NCBI GenBank assembly: GCA_902610995.1
Contig: CACLXU010000001.1
Location: 1 to 47,206, forward strand
Length of the DNA: 47,206 nt
Direction: 5' to 3'
From: an uncultured SAR86 cluster bacterium
GTDB taxonomy: Bacteria; Pseudomonadota; Gammaproteobacteria; Magnimaribacterales; TMED112
Position numbers and translations under genes: made by a program. How positions within the stretch are numbered: position 1 is the stretch's first letter; the number at the start of each line of letters is the position of its first letter. Below, in pieces: positions 6,897-13,381 of this stretch. The notes beneath the pieces were generated by a model. The model did not search any database. It was not told the origin of the DNA and saw nothing but the letters and a program-made list of their open reading frames with translations.

Positions 6897-8768
6897 TTAC
6901 TTAAAAATATGCCTGGCATAAGTACTTGACCCTCTCTCAGTCAAATGACCGTAATCCCAAAAAAGCAATTCATTATTTCCTTCAGGATCCATGCCAAGGC
7001 AAGCTGAGTTAAAGCAGTACTCATCTAAAATTGAAATGAATTGTATATTCTCATTATCAATTTCATCTATAGAATCTTTAATTAATACATCTGAAACAAC
7101 TTGCTTTTCCAAATGAGTTTGAATAAACCCTGAATTCTTTTTTATATCTTGAATAGAGATAGCATTAAATACCAAATATTTTGGAAGGGAATTAAACCAT
7201 TGCGGAGTATTCCCAACAACTATTATTTTTGCATCTTCTCGACTGGTAGAGATCTGTTGAAGTGTATCTTTGAACGATTCGATATAATCCCCATAACCAT
7301 GTCTAACCCAATTAGCATGCAGAATTATTAGTTTATATTTATTTTCTTTTATTGAAGTGAAAATTTGATCGTTCAAGAACGCACAAACATTATTATCAGA
7401 AAGGCTTATATCTAATATGGGAGGACAGCCTGACGAAGTCAGCTGTGTAATTGGTTGGATTTCATTTAAACCATGGAAAAGAGCGGCGGCATGAGAATCT
7501 CCCCATAAAAGCGTTTCTCCAGAAAAACATGAACTATCAAAACTTTGAATCGAATCATCCTCTTCCAGAAAGCATGCTCCGGTTCTTAGCTGTTGGTTAA
7601 ATTTGTCGAGATTTTTGATTCTTAATATTTCCTGTTCTTGTTTGCTTAACCTTTCATCAAATCCATTATTGAAATGGCCCAAAAGTCCTATTGATACGAG
7701 AAAAACGCTGCCAAGTGCTGCAAATTTAAAAATAAATCTCCTATCTATAATCTTCTTATCACGAAACTTTCTTTCAAAAAACCTCCAAGATATGTAAGAG
7801 ATGATTATAGAGATTGTAAAAATAATCACTGTTTGTATGAAATTCAATTCTTGGAACTGAGCATATTTTGTGAATGAAATGATTGGAAAATGCCAAAGAT
7901 AGAGGCTATAGGAAATTAATCCAATCGATACTAGTGGTTTGAATGAAAGAATCTTATAAATTTTAGTCTTTTGGTTACAAAAGACTATGACTAAAAACGT
8001 ACCAAGTACTGGTATTAATGTCCATAAGGAGGGGTGGTCGAGGTTCTGATCGAATAAAATTAAGGAAATCAAAAGAAGTGAAAAGCCAATTGCAGATCCT
8101 AGTTCTGAGATAATTTTTGACCCTAAAACTTTTTTTTCATTCAACAGAATTGCTGCATATATTCCAATTATAAGCTCCCACGCTCGAGAAATTATAAGAT
8201 AAAACTTCCAGCTTGATGGTTCGACCTCCAGTAAAAAAAGTGATAAAAAACTACTGAAAAAAAATAGACTGATTACAACAACAAAAAAATTAAAGCTTAT
8301 TTTGAGACACAACAAAATTAAAATTGGAAAGAAAAGATAGAATTGCTCTTCAACTGATAAGCTCCATGTATGCAGTAATGGCTGCAGATCTGCTGGTGGA
8401 GAGAAATAAGGATTAGTCAGCCAAAAATAAATATTTGATAAAAAAATTGATGAGGAAAATATGCTTTGAGACAATGATTTAAAATCAGGCGGTAATAGCA
8501 AAAACCAACCAAAAATCGCGGTTGTCAAAGTCACCAGAAATAATACAGGAAATATTCTTCTTACTCTTCTTTCATAAAAATTTATCAAGGAAAAAGATTC
8601 ATCTTCAATTTCTTTGATAATTAATGTTGCTATGAGGTAGCCACTTATAACAAAAAAAATATCTACGCCTATATAGCCGCCATCAAAAATTGACCATCCA
8701 AGATGAAAAAAAACAACTGGTAAAACGGCTAATGCTCGGAGGCCATCGATTTCTGGTCTATAATTCAT
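6897..8768 (-). CDS. Membrane O-acyltransferase with SGNH domain (OafA-like)
   Basis: A 623-residue inner-membrane acyltransferase-3 protein that probably O-acetylates a cell-surface sugar. It opens with the family signature YRPEIDGLRALAVLPV (3-18) and the likely catalytic His22 in VFFHLGW. About ten hydrophobic segments run to roughly residue 370. RRVRRIFPVLF and LLHTWSLSVEEQFYLFFPI are standard internal motifs. The periplasmic C-terminal SGNH hydrolase-like domain has GDSH at 423-426 and a D605-x-x-H608 pair, completing a Ser-His-Asp triad. It is a full paralogue of the gene at 11435-13381, so the pair may acylate different positions or sugars. It diverges from the DUF305 gene across 79 bases. 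Confidence 0.9.
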   Translation of the reverse strand: MNYRPEIDGLRALAVLPVVFFHLGWSIFDGGYIGVDIFFVISGYLIATLIIKEIEDESFSLINFYERRVRRIFPVLFLVTLTTAIFGWFLLLPPDFKSLSQSIFSSSIFLSNIYFWLTNPYFSPPADLQPLLHTWSLSVEEQFYLFFPILILLCLKISFNFFVVVISLFFFSSFLSLFLLEVEPSSWKFYLIISRAWELIIGIYAAILLNEKKVLGSKIISELGSAIGFSLLLISLILFDQNLDHPSLWTLIPVLGTFLVIVFCNQKTKIYKILSFKPLVSIGLISYSLYLWHFPIISFTKYAQFQELNFIQTVIIFTISIIISYISWRFFERKFRDKKIIDRRFIFKFAALGSVFLVSIGLLGHFNNGFDERLSKQEQEILRIKNLDKFNQQLRTGACFLEEDDSIQSFDSSCFSGETLLWGDSHAAALFHGLNEIQPITQLTSSGCPPILDISLSDNNVCAFLNDQIFTSIKENKYKLIILHANWVRHGYGDYIESFKDTLQQISTSREDAKIIVVGNTPQWFNSLPKYLVFNAISIQDIKKNSGFIQTHLEKQVVSDVLIKDSIDEIDNENIQFISILDEYCFNSACLGMDPEGNNELLFWDYGHLTERGSSTYARHIFK

Positions 8769-8847: not shown

Positions 8848-11034
8848 ATGAAAAAAAATCTATTGAGTCTTTTATTGATTATCTCAATGGCACTAATTGC
8901 CATTGAACCAAAAATTATACAACCTGGTGCACCTGGAAAACCTAGTGCGAATATAGATGCTGAGGATGCTATAGCCATTGCAGAGTCGTCCTACACAACT
9001 GCAGACGTGGCCTTCCTCCAAGGAATGATAGTTCATCATGAACAAGCACTCTTTATGTCAGAACTTGCTTCGGAGAGAACAAATGCTCAATCGATTGTCG
9101 ACTTGGCTGGCAGAATTGAAGCATCACAGGAAGACGAAATAAATTTTATGGAAGGATGGCTTGCTGAAAGAGATGAAAGTGTAGCAATGGATATGGATCA
9201 TGGAATGAGCGGAAGTGATCACAAGATGAATATGCATGTAAATATGGCTGGCATGGCTACACCTCAACAACTTGCTCAGCTTGAGAAATCTAAAGGAACA
9301 GATTTTGATAGATTATTTCTCAACCTGATGATAAATCATCACGATGGAGCTGTAAAAATGGTTGCTGAACTTCGCAAACAATCTGGCTCGGCATATGATC
9401 CTGTATTGAATGAATTTGTTTCAGACTTAGTAAATGATCAAGGTGTTGAAATTGAAAGAATGAATGGCCTGTTAGTGGGATTATCAAATGATCCTCGTTC
9501 GGGCCTCAAAGGAGGACTTAAATATGCAGAGGAAGCTATCCTTAACCTTGAATTAGTGAAACACTTAGATAAGCCTGTGGGTTTTTATGATCCCAATAAT
9601 CCAGCACTGAGAGGCTCAGATAGTGCTAAAGATCCTGAAGAAAAAGAAAACATTTCATTAGAGGAGCGATCAGTAAAACTGAGGTCACCAATGTTTAGTT
9701 TTTCAAATACAGATATGGCATTTAGTGAAAATCTTTTAGTTGCTGGCAGTTATCATGGTTTTAACATGTATGAACTTGACAATGATGGTGTGCCAAATTT
9801 AGTAACTTCAGTAGTTTGTCCCGGAGGACAGGGTGATGTCTCAATTGTTGGTGATTTGCTTATCATGTCAGTAGAGCAGACAAGGGGCAGGCTTGATTGT
9901 GGTCGAGAGGGCGTAGGTACAGAACCAAGCATGGAAAGGTTTAGAGGGATTAGAATATTTGATATTTCTGATATCTCTAATCCAGTACAAGTTGGAGCTG
10001 TGCAAACATGTAGAGGCTCGCATACACATTCCGTCGTAGCTGGACCTACGGAGGATGGAAAAATCGTAGTCTATAACTCTGGAACTGGCAGAATTAGAGA
10101 TAATGAAGAGATGGCATCTTGCTTTGACAATCCAGGAGATACTAGGACTGCATTGTTTAGAATAGATGTAATCGAAATCCCTATTAATGATCCCAGTGCA
10201 TCAAAAATTGTTTCCAGCCCTGCTGTTTTTGCTGACAAAGAAACTGGCCAACTTGCTGGGCTTTGGCGTGGAGGGGATCATGGAGATCCTTATGAAACAC
10301 AAAATACTAGGATGACTAACCAGTGTCATGACATAACAGTTTTTCCAACTAAAAATATAGCTGCTGGAGCATGTTCGGGAAATGGTATTTTATTTGATAT
10401 TTCTGACCCCTATAACCCAGAGAGAATTGACGTAGTGACAGATACAGGTTTTGCCTACTGGCACTCTGCTACCTTTAATAACGATGGAACTAAGGTAGTT
10501 TTTACTGACGAATGGGGTGGCGGTGGAAGGCCTAGATGTAGAGCATGGGATCCACTTAATTGGGGAGCTGATGCGATCTATGATATTGTCGATAATAAAC
10601 TTGTTTTCAAAAGCCATTACAAAATGCCGGCACCACAATTAGAATCTGAAAACTGTGTTGCTCATAATGGATCGATCGTTCCTGTGAAAGGGAGAGATAT
10701 CTTCGCACAGGCTTGGTACCAAGGCGGGATATCAATTATGGATTTCACTGATTCTGCAAACCCAATAGAAATAGGTTATTTTGACAGAGGGCCAGTTCTA
10801 GAGGATGAGCTTGTTACTGGTGGTTACTGGTCTGTATATTATTATGAAGGAAAGCTCTATGGTACTGAGATTGCAAGAGGGCTTGATGTATTTAAATTAC
10901 TTCCAAGTGAGTTCCTTTCAGAGGAGGATATTAAGTCAGCCGAAAATGCAAGACCTGCTGCAGGGCCTAAAAGACTATTTAATCCTCAACAGCAAATACC
11001 AATGGAGTGGACAGATTATTCCGCATCTGAATAA
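8848..11034 (+). CDS. Secreted tandem DUF305 - LVIVD beta-propeller protein with Met/His-rich linker
   Basis: A 728-residue protein with an N-terminal export signal (hydrophobic 5-19). Two DUF305 helical domains follow, at about 52-108 (FLQGMIVHHEQAL, His63-His64) and 152-210 (LFLNLMINHHDGAV, His164-His165). The linker at 114-136 contains seven Met and three His in MDMDHGM / HKMNMH / MAGM spacing, which resembles periplasmic copper-binding segments. DUF305 includes the copper-binding CopM of Synechocystis. From about 285 onward, LVIVD-type propeller blades recur (GIRIFDISDISNP, ILFDISDPYNP, ISIMDFTDSANP), with several Cys. A GAGG Shine-Dalgarno sits before the ATG. It is followed after 2 bases by the DoxX gene. 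A copper or redox role is inferred, not shown. Confidence 0.85.
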   Translation: MKKNLLSLLLIISMALIAIEPKIIQPGAPGKPSANIDAEDAIAIAESSYTTADVAFLQGMIVHHEQALFMSELASERTNAQSIVDLAGRIEASQEDEINFMEGWLAERDESVAMDMDHGMSGSDHKMNMHVNMAGMATPQQLAQLEKSKGTDFDRLFLNLMINHHDGAVKMVAELRKQSGSAYDPVLNEFVSDLVNDQGVEIERMNGLLVGLSNDPRSGLKGGLKYAEEAILNLELVKHLDKPVGFYDPNNPALRGSDSAKDPEEKENISLEERSVKLRSPMFSFSNTDMAFSENLLVAGSYHGFNMYELDNDGVPNLVTSVVCPGGQGDVSIVGDLLIMSVEQTRGRLDCGREGVGTEPSMERFRGIRIFDISDISNPVQVGAVQTCRGSHTHSVVAGPTEDGKIVVYNSGTGRIRDNEEMASCFDNPGDTRTALFRIDVIEIPINDPSASKIVSSPAVFADKETGQLAGLWRGGDHGDPYETQNTRMTNQCHDITVFPTKNIAAGACSGNGILFDISDPYNPERIDVVTDTGFAYWHSATFNNDGTKVVFTDEWGGGGRPRCRAWDPLNWGADAIYDIVDNKLVFKSHYKMPAPQLESENCVAHNGSIVPVKGRDIFAQAWYQGGISIMDFTDSANPIEIGYFDRGPVLEDELVTGGYWSVYYYEGKLYGTEIARGLDVFKLLPSEFLSEEDIKSAENARPAAGPKRLFNPQQQIPMEWTDYSASE

Positions 11035-11036
11035 TC

Positions 11037-11417
11037 TTGAATAAATATCAGATTCCAAGCAAAACCTTTTATAAAGTTGGAAGAGTTTTGCTTGGAATTT
11101 ATTTTCTAATTCCCGGCTTATTCAAATTTTTACTTTTTGAAAATAATTTAGAAATAGTCATCCTTCGGGAGGTTCCATTCCCAATTTTTTCCCTGTTGTT
11201 GATAGGTGCTTTGCAAGTCATATTTGGAACTTTAATCATAGTCGGTAAAAAAGTAAGCATTAGTGCATGTATCCTTGTTTTAGTAACAATCTTAATAAAC
11301 CTTTACATTCATGATTTTTGGAACATAACAATAAATACAGATCATGAGACTCAGAACTTTGTAAAAAATTTAGGGATAATCGCTGGGTTATTGCTATTAA
11401 CAAAAGATAAAAATTAA
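11037..11417 (+). CDS. DoxX-like small integral membrane protein (TTG start)
   Basis: A 126-residue, four-helix membrane protein. VGRVLLGIYFLIPGLFKF at 14-31 is the DoxX-type first helix, followed by hydrophobic segments near 48-68, 74-90 and 106-122. DoxX proteins are linked to quinone or thiol redox chemistry at the membrane, but specific roles differ. The only possible start is TTG at 11037: upstream the frame closes at a TGA within the preceding gene, and there is no internal Met. It begins 2 bases after the DUF305/LVIVD stop with no clear Shine-Dalgarno, so it is probably translated by reinitiation and may work with that protein. Confidence 0.78.
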   Translation: MNKYQIPSKTFYKVGRVLLGIYFLIPGLFKFLLFENNLEIVILREVPFPIFSLLLIGALQVIFGTLIIVGKKVSISACILVLVTILINLYIHDFWNITINTDHETQNFVKNLGIIAGLLLLTKDKN

Positions 11418-11434: not shown

Positions 11435-13381
11435 CTAATTTAGAATCTCAAGGATTGTCTCTTCTAGCTTTAAAGAGCCATGAGTTGATAAGTGATCATC
11501 GTCATAATAGAAACTTTTGTTTATTTCTCCAATTAGACATTTTTCTTCATCACAGAATGTATCAATAATGTGGTAGAGATTGATTTCGTCTTCAGAAGAT
11601 TTAAATATTTTAATTGGTATTCTTTCCAACTCTTCAAACTTTTCTCGAGCAACTGACAAGTCATAAATACTGCTAATGCCCCTTGCAGCTCTAAAATAAA
11701 AGGACTCTGGAGAAGAAACTTGTTGAGGAGGCTGGGATATTAGATATATAGGAATATTGCTTCCTTTATATTCTTTGACAGTCTCGAGAAAAGACTGATT
11801 AAATGCTTTTATACTATTTTCTCTTGTAAACGGACCATCTGAGGATCTTGCAATTAGCTGAGCTCCACTACCATCATAATTTCCATCAATGTAATAAGAC
11901 CATCTAGCAGATAAAATTATTCCATTGACTTGTTGTTCACGTGCATAATTTAGAACTCTATCATTCAGTGCTTTGCAATTATTAGTTCTCTGATCTGGTC
12001 TGTTAGGAACCACTCCTATGAAGGGAGGACAACCAGAAGACCCAGTAAAAAACACACTTAAATTTTTTTCTGTAGCAATATTATCCACAAGATTTTTTAG
12101 AGATAAGGCATGTGAGTCGCCAAATAAGATGAAATCAATACTTTCTTTTTTAGCTCCTAATAGACACCCCCATTCGTCAGAGGAATGATTGAAAGGCCGA
12201 TCAAAACAAACTCCAACTTGAGGCTTATTAAAAGAGTCTTTTAATTCCTCTGAAAAGTTAACCCTTCCTTCAAATCCTTTACTTAGATACATACTCATAC
12301 CAATAGCACTAAAAAATAATATTCCTATTACAGAAAAATTAAGAATAAATTTCTTTGAGGTTTGTGTTTTATCCCTAAAAGGTTTTTCAACCCATTTCCA
12401 GCTAATGTAAGCCAGCACCAATGAGCTTAAACAAAGCATAATCAACATAAGGTCTGACACCTCTTCCAAAAATTTGTGTTTCGCAAAAGCTAGTAACGGC
12501 TGATGCCAAAGGTACGCGCTATAGGAAATAAGTCCAACTGAAACAATTGGAGAAAAACTTAGAATTTTGTAAATGATAGTCCTATTAATAGCCGACAGAA
12601 TTAATAGACCTGTACCAACAGTTGGCACTAATGTATATAAACTTGGAAATGGTGTAGATTCATCGAAAAATAATATTGAATAAACTATCATTGCAAATCC
12701 AGTAATGCTAAAAATTTGGTTTAAAGTTGAAGATTTCAGGTGACCTTTATATTTTAAATAAAAAGCAATAAAAACACCTATCAATAATTCCCACCCTCTT
12801 GTTGGAAGAAGATAAAATGCTGCCGATGGTTTGTTATACGCTCCCCATTCAGCGAGTAGCAGACTAGCAAAAAACGCTAGCCCTAAAATAAGTAGAATCC
12901 ATTTAATCCCTAAACGCCAAAATACAAATAAAAATATCGGAAAAATGATGTAGTACTGTTCCTCTACAGCCAAACTCCATGTATGAAGAAGTGGTTTAAG
13001 CTCAGCTGTTGCTTCAAAGTATCCACTCTCAAGCCAAAATAAAAAGTTTGATGAAAAGGTAGAGACAGCAATAAGACTCTCGCCAAAATCTCTAAGGTCA
13101 TTTGGTGTAAGCCAAAACCAAGCAAATGGAATACAACTTAACATTACTAAAAATAGTGCTGGCAAAATTCTTCGAGCTCGTCTTTCATAGAAACTTAAGA
13201 CACTAAAGCTCTCTTGTGCTAATTCAGATAAAATTATGCTTGTGATCAAGTATCCACTGATTACAAAGAAAACATCTACTCCAATAAATCCACCACTAAA
13301 ATATTGAAATCCTGCATGAAAGAAGATTACTGGCAATACTGCCAATGCTCGTAAACCGTCAATTTCTGGTCTGTAATTCAG
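11435..13381 (-). CDS. Membrane O-acyltransferase with SGNH domain, probable CTG start
   Basis: Paralogue of the gene at 6897-8768: acyltransferase-3 membrane domain followed by a periplasmic SGNH domain. Read from a CTG codon at 13381-13379, the protein has 648 residues and begins NYRPEIDGLRALAVLPVIFF, the same as the ATG-started paralogue. AGGAG lies 6 bases before that CTG. An in-frame TAA at 13399-13397 excludes any start further upstream, and the next usable start (TTG at 13345) would remove the conserved RPEIDGLR motif. GDSH has its Ser at 423; D627-x-x-H630 completes the triad. It probably acetylates a surface polysaccharide or lipopolysaccharide; the target is unknown. Confidence 0.88.
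   Translation of the reverse strand: MNYRPEIDGLRALAVLPVIFFHAGFQYFSGGFIGVDVFFVISGYLITSIILSELAQESFSVLSFYERRARRILPALFLVMLSCIPFAWFWLTPNDLRDFGESLIAVSTFSSNFLFWLESGYFEATAELKPLLHTWSLAVEEQYYIIFPIFLFVFWRLGIKWILLILGLAFFASLLLAEWGAYNKPSAAFYLLPTRGWELLIGVFIAFYLKYKGHLKSSTLNQIFSITGFAMIVYSILFFDESTPFPSLYTLVPTVGTGLLILSAINRTIIYKILSFSPIVSVGLISYSAYLWHQPLLAFAKHKFLEEVSDLMLIMLCLSSLVLAYISWKWVEKPFRDKTQTSKKFILNFSVIGILFFSAIGMSMYLSKGFEGRVNFSEELKDSFNKPQVGVCFDRPFNHSSDEWGCLLGAKKESIDFILFGDSHALSLKNLVDNIATEKNLSVFFTGSSGCPPFIGVVPNRPDQRTNNCKALNDRVLNYAREQQVNGIILSARWSYYIDGNYDGSGAQLIARSSDGPFTRENSIKAFNQSFLETVKEYKGSNIPIYLISQPPQQVSSPESFYFRAARGISSIYDLSVAREKFEELERIPIKIFKSSEDEINLYHIIDTFCDEEKCLIGEINKSFYYDDDHLSTHGSLKLEETILEILN

Follow-up and report, generated by a model that had tools for sequence, protein, structure and literature searches.

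An exported protein encoded by an uncultured SAR86 cluster bacterium carries a CopM-type DUF305 domain fused to a predicted seven-bladed beta-propeller, and the same DUF305-propeller pairing recurs in several phyla. It has the look of a copper-handling protein not described before, and may be an enzyme equipped with a copper supplier of its own. The gene lies in the window, that is, the whole stretch of 47,206 nucleotides herewith analysed (contig CACLXU010000001.1), and its features are listed in Table 1. The features that we consider most telling, namely the Asp/His series conserved in the propeller, its eight invariant Cys and the occurrence of the same two parts as neighbour genes in other phyla, had been missed by an earlier sequence-only reading of this DNA.

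Table 1. Location of the DUF305-propeller fusion, its predicted parts and the adjacent DoxX gene in the window
Feature	Position	Strand	Basis
CDS, exported CopM-type DUF305 domain fused to seven-bladed propeller	8848..11034	+	728 aa, ATG; ORF, Pfam, AF2 model
Probable signal peptide, residues 1-20, hydrophobic N-terminus	8848..8907	+	by eye from sequence
DUF305 (PF03713), residues 53-209	9004..9474	+	Pfam; helical bundle in AF2 model
First MxxHH motif, M60 H63 H64	9025..9039	+	invariant, 54/54 homologues
Met/His-rich linker, residues 106-136, joining the DUF305 halves	9163..9255	+	composition in 54 homologues
Second MxxHH motif, M161 H164 H165	9328..9342	+	invariant, 54/54 homologues
Seven-bladed beta-propeller, residues 232-685	9541..10902	+	AF2 model, structural alignment, conservation
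Putative channel residues, one per blade: D289, D330, H394, H494, H539, H606, W661	9712..10830	+	conservation; geometry inferred
DoxX-family membrane protein, 126 aa, TTG start, optional SAR86 partner	11037..11417	+	Pfam DoxX

Both open reading frames delimited by the sequence-only reading, that of the fusion protein and that of DoxX starting 2 bases after the stop codon of the fusion gene, were confirmed. Homologues with 44-86% identity span the propeller and most of them align over the whole length of the window protein, indicating that the fusion frame did not arise by chance. One homologue (G006; L047 1471-3685, minus strand) is broken into two overlapping frames inside DUF305, by either a frameshift or an assembly error. 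The AlphaFold2 model, for which an alignment of 53 relatives was used as the input, places the DUF305 helices before the propeller (mean pLDDT, 79.3; pTM, 0.78).

The N-terminal part gave one full-length Pfam match to DUF305 (142.9 bits against the cut-off of 27), covering positions 1-151 of the 151 in the model. Since this single match takes in both halves and the linker, the tandem DUF305 domains with an independent linker, as previously proposed, were ruled out in favor of one ordinary CopM-type domain, and the PDB structures of CopM and 3bt5 likewise align across both halves. The HH pairs at residues 63-64 and 164-165, and the seven Met and three His within residues 114-136, were confirmed in the sequence. 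Conservation differs between motifs and linker: both MxxHH motifs, including the His pairs, are invariant as listed in Table 1, while the linker is conserved in composition, being Met/His-rich in all 54 homologues (on average 31% Met plus His versus 8% in the rest of the domain) with a length of 17-42 residues. Position-by-position conservation was not found in the homologue alignment except for M133, G135 and M136; of the Met-rich linker noted earlier, the composition is conserved and the individual Met/His positions, except M133 and M136, are not. In two loci (L042 359-2581, minus strand; L043 1435-3654, plus strand) the linker extends to 42 residues with 19 Met/His in near-repeats such as MDHDMDHNMDHSMHH, and is an expanded Met/His repeat.

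The CopM protein of Synechocystis (PF03713; PDB 5ffa and 5fej) binds Cu(I) with a KD of about 3.7e-16, and its absence renders the mutants copper-sensitive while its presence lowers the copper load (PMC4335983); in addition, peptides of the CopM MxxHH motifs and linker bind Cu(II) (PMC11836926). The window domain resembles CopM in being exported, in its two-half helical organization with one HH motif in each half, and in the Met/His-rich linker between them. In contrast to CopM, which is free-standing and encoded beside copRS, the domain of this family is fused to or paired with a propeller, and stays under the cut-off of the NCBIfam CopM family metallochaperone model (NF049983; 70.5 versus 90 bits). 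Among 60 ORFs neighbouring 24 DUF305 loci of other Pseudomonadota outside the fusion family, six encode copper P-type ATPases, a count taken without a matched random-locus control; no propeller was present among the 25 most frequent neighbour families listed at these 24 loci. Taken together, the CopM match, the two motifs, the linker and the copper ATPases often found beside DUF305 genes elsewhere lend good support to the previous suggestion that the N-terminal half is copper-related, and copper binding by the DUF305 part, likely on the grounds of homology, is the firmest step of our interpretation.

The C-terminal part had been described as an LVIVD beta-propeller. A seven-bladed propeller is indeed predicted, but its assignment to the LVIVD family is not sustained, with a score of 11.8 bits against the cut-off of 20.2 for PF08309. 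The choice-of-anchor B model (TIGR04312) was not reached either (48 versus 100 bits), yet a relationship with this family was detected by hhalign (probability, 98.3; E, 1.9e-14). When the blades were aligned manually, the first residues of the inner strands formed a D-D-H-H-H-H-W series, in which D289 is conserved in 61 of 62 propellers and the other six residues (Table 1) in all 62; we infer from these positions that the series lines the mouth of the central channel. Eight Cys (324, 351, 388, 425, 493, 509, 564 and 603) are also invariant in 62/62 propellers, and the propeller is probably disulfide-stabilised. Three choice-of-anchor-B propellers show the same series, again invariant (D57, D125, H176, H227, H281, H335 and W384). 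The window propeller is like the choice-of-anchor-B propellers in profile and in the one-per-blade series, but differs from the choice-of-anchor-B and LVIVD families in falling under both cut-offs, in the eight invariant Cys, in long private motifs and in its DUF305 partner; unlike choice-of-anchor-B proteins, no C-terminal sorting anchor was seen in the window protein. Solved seven-bladed WD40-type propellers align to the propeller region of the model with Z about 30 (VIA-align), and were set aside as a guide to function, being generic propellers.

We consider it rather probable, by analogy, that the propeller holds a metal. A comparable site is known for SELENBP1, also a seven-bladed propeller, whose copper ligands are His, Asp and Glu residues and in which mutation of His137, His140, Asp189 and Glu252 cuts the copper content and nearly abolishes the activity (PMC10362175). 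Blade motifs comparable to the series in the window protein begin with H145, D208 and E272, three residues conserved among SBP56 homologues. The likeness to SELENBP1 and methanethiol oxidase (a copper-dependent seven-bladed propeller with His/Asp/Glu channel ligands) is in the way of working only: the window propeller lies outside SBP56 by Pfam, with no match to PF05694 in the window protein at E up to 1, and none was found in its own genome. The same D-D-H-H-H-H-W series occurs in choice-of-anchor-B propellers, which are not known to pair with DUF305; its presence is therefore no specific sign of a copper partner, and the metal bound could be a different one.

Relatives were identified at 32 loci in 84,980 species genomes, using search patterns drawn from the window protein, which favour close relatives. 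Within the SAR86 order, the fusion was matched in 105 of 203 genomes and 16 of 22 genera, usually as a single copy. One non-SAR86 genome was matched in the class sample, and 13 of 398 genomes in the phylum sample; most of these 13 lie outside the class, the fused as well as the separate form occurs among them, and they are taken to be alphaproteobacteria. Carriers of the fused form are SAR86, Woeseiaceae, further gammaproteobacteria and one MAG labelled Acidobacteria (L010); the DUF305-linker-DUF305-propeller order noted beforehand recurs in the SAR86 order as well as in other gamma- and alphaproteobacteria. Separate neighbour genes with DUF305 first were found in 14/32 loci, mostly of Acidobacteriota and Gemmatimonadota, and also in L082 and L087. 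The stop codon of one gene overlaps the start of the other in L014, L019, L023 and L029, and also in L082, which points to translational coupling. Variations in gene order include propeller-DUF305-propeller (L014) and DUF305 followed by two propellers (L019 and L022), and the propeller stands without DUF305 at six loci (L016, L017, L018, L020, L021 and L032), where some of the sequences are incomplete.

In the maximum-likelihood tree of 71 propellers, a single branch sets all 46 fused ones apart from the separate ones, with support of 99/92 and recovery in 97% of the bootstrap trees. The fused and separate forms are thus parted by a single change, which with the midpoint root may be read from the tree as one fusion or one fission. 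Some separate DUF305 proteins (L012 4881-5558, L023 3860-4516 and L030 5001-5657) start with a lipobox-like sequence such as LLGACS, suggesting that they are lipoproteins. Two pairs carry unexpected labels, one Acidobacteriota-like in a MAG labelled Bifidobacterium breve (L023 3860-6405) and the other nearly identical to a Gemmatimonadota pair in a MAG labelled Rhodospirillaceae (L028 4647-7224); both contigs are probably mislabelled or misbinned. In the plasmid collection, the DUF305 proteins were exclusively those of actinobacteria, and a Nonomuraea record contained one distant propeller.

Beyond the two parts, the neighbourhood is not conserved. Clustering of the neighbouring ORFs over the loci, together with Pfam analysis of ten of them, ruled out a larger conserved operon, the neighbours being lineage-local, for instance an amidohydrolase, an epimerase and Sortilin/BNR proteins. 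In the window, paralogous acyltransferase-3/SGNH genes (6897-8768 and 11435-13345, both on the minus strand) flank the DUF305-DoxX pair, and such flanks were seen also in L001, not in other SAR86 loci.

The product of the DoxX gene, a small membrane protein, exceeds the Pfam cut-off for DoxX (PF07681; 29.8 versus 23.6 bits) and also that for SURF4 (28 versus 27), and its subfamily keeps IHDFWN and HExQNFxKN. It differs from DoxX at large in that the gene directly follows that of an exported copper-protein candidate, an arrangement found only in SAR86. The adjacency is not peculiar to this genome: in 25 SAR86 genomes DoxX immediately follows the fusion on its strand, with 6 to 47 bases between the match ends, and its start frequently overlaps the stop of the fusion gene. 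In the genus of the window, DoxX is present in 11 of 15 genomes with the fusion (adjacent in 10) and in none of the 6 without it; the more distant DoxX genes of SAR86 genomes lie away from the fusion. DoxX was not found at the other gammaproteobacterial, Acidobacteriota or Gemmatimonadota loci read, and its absence there and beside the fusion in many SAR86 genomes rules it out as an obligate partner. It is a lineage-specific, optional accessory recruited in part of SAR86, and the membrane redox partner of the metal unit originally envisaged therefore falls outside the conserved system.

Two precedents of the pairing were found in the literature. In Myxococcus xanthus, a PQQ_2-propeller lipoprotein gene (MXAN_3417) adjoins a DUF305 lipoprotein gene (MXAN_3416) in the copper-induced curA operon (PMC3707914), and in Starkeya novella 12 bp separate the DUF305 gene from a YVTN-propeller gene (Snov_0990/0991), the pair being driven by an ECF sigma factor that is active when the cells grow on tetrathionate (PMC6527743). 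As in the present family, a DUF305 gene adjoins one annotated as a propeller in both cases; they differ in that the genes are separate and the propellers carry PQQ_2 and YVTN annotations. The available portions of these two reports treat the pairing as a system in neither organism. Our literature search found no paper on DUF305 together with LVIVD, on choice-of-anchor B, or on SAR86 with DoxX.

The explanation that we prefer, with about an even chance of being correct, is a periplasmic two-part copper protein in which DUF305 supplies or guards copper for the propeller, a probable oxidoreductase. The CopM-type domain would capture copper through the two MxxHH motifs and the Met/His-rich linker, and the propeller would bind a metal at its channel mouth through as many as four His and two Asp; copper would then pass from the DUF305 part to the propeller, or be guarded there by DUF305, and the propeller would act as a copper-dependent oxidoreductase in the manner of the SELENBP/methanethiol-oxidase propellers without being a member. 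Since the parts form one protein in Proteobacteria and are mostly encoded by neighbouring genes in Acidobacteriota and Gemmatimonadota, supplying or guarding the propeller copper is the most likely role of DUF305. By analogy, an enzymatic, redox role of the fusion is plausible at somewhat less than an even chance, and the transfer of copper from DUF305 to the propeller is proposed more tentatively. The CopM score under the cut-off, the lack of any recurring copper gene beyond the pair in the neighbourhoods read, and the lack of a copper P-type ATPase match in the window's own genome all count against this explanation. The ATPase family was found in all 14 control genomes, and its absence from this genome, which is about 80% complete, may be a gap.

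The function could alternatively be copper sequestration or storage only, with DUF305 and the linker binding excess periplasmic copper as CopM does and the propeller serving as a structural or docking platform without catalytic metal. The copper sensitivity of CopM mutants and the lowered copper load agree with this, as does the strongly varying amount of Met/His in the linker, which reaches 19 of the 42 residues in L042 and L043 and would be expected of a sink more than of a precisely built site; propellers with seven blades, moreover, often serve as docking platforms. We nevertheless regard it as rather unlikely, as a passive platform would need neither the long invariant motifs nor four invariant His and two invariant or nearly invariant Asp, one per blade, and two propellers per DUF305 gene at some Acidobacteriota loci (L014, L019 and L022) also speak against it.

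If the propeller is instead catalytic with another metal, it could be a phosphotriesterase-like metallohydrolase with a binuclear centre of the Mn/Zn/Fe type, DUF305 handling that or a different metal. The Sphingobium TCM1 phosphotriesterase (PDB 5hrm and 5ioj) has a binuclear metal centre in its seven-bladed propeller. Its structure 5hrm was the best Foldseek match of our model, well ahead of others (E, 1.2e-11 over 515 columns), and the sole propeller touched by query-sequence or profile searches (E, 0.035 to 0.43); that this match is not a copper enzyme counts against the copper-enzyme reading. Yet the sequence match is limited to a generic repeat motif, and DUF305 indicates copper, which is unusual in hydrolases; we regard this assignment as improbable. 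The identity is about 13%, and the phosphotriesterase lacks DUF305. Quite improbable, too, is a sulfur-compound or thiol stress protein, made upon reactive sulfur species and oxidising a thiol or sulfur compound with copper as cofactor. The control of the Starkeya pair by an ECF sigma factor active on tetrathionate and the thiol oxidation by the copper propeller SELENBP1 (PMC10362175) are consistent with it, but no recurring sulfur gene was found beside the pair in the loci read, and Snov_0991 is only a candidate member of this propeller family.

A further proposal, speculative and on balance unlikely, is that the seven-bladed propeller represents a new class of periplasmic copper enzymes, having a His4Asp2 site in its channel and a dedicated copper chaperone that is covalently attached in Proteobacteria and encoded alongside it in other phyla; if true, the unstudied choice-of-anchor-B propellers that share the series would likewise be metalloproteins. 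The fused or adjacent pattern ties DUF305 to a specific partner and supplies point mutants for testing, and with the residue series in common, a metal site can be tested for across a whole family of unstudied propellers. SAR86 is among the most abundant groups of surface-ocean bacteria and has small genomes, and about half of the SAR86 genomes searched retain one copy of this long protein despite their small size. If it is copper-handling, the fusion would be a candidate for the little-studied use of copper in streamlined marine heterotrophs.
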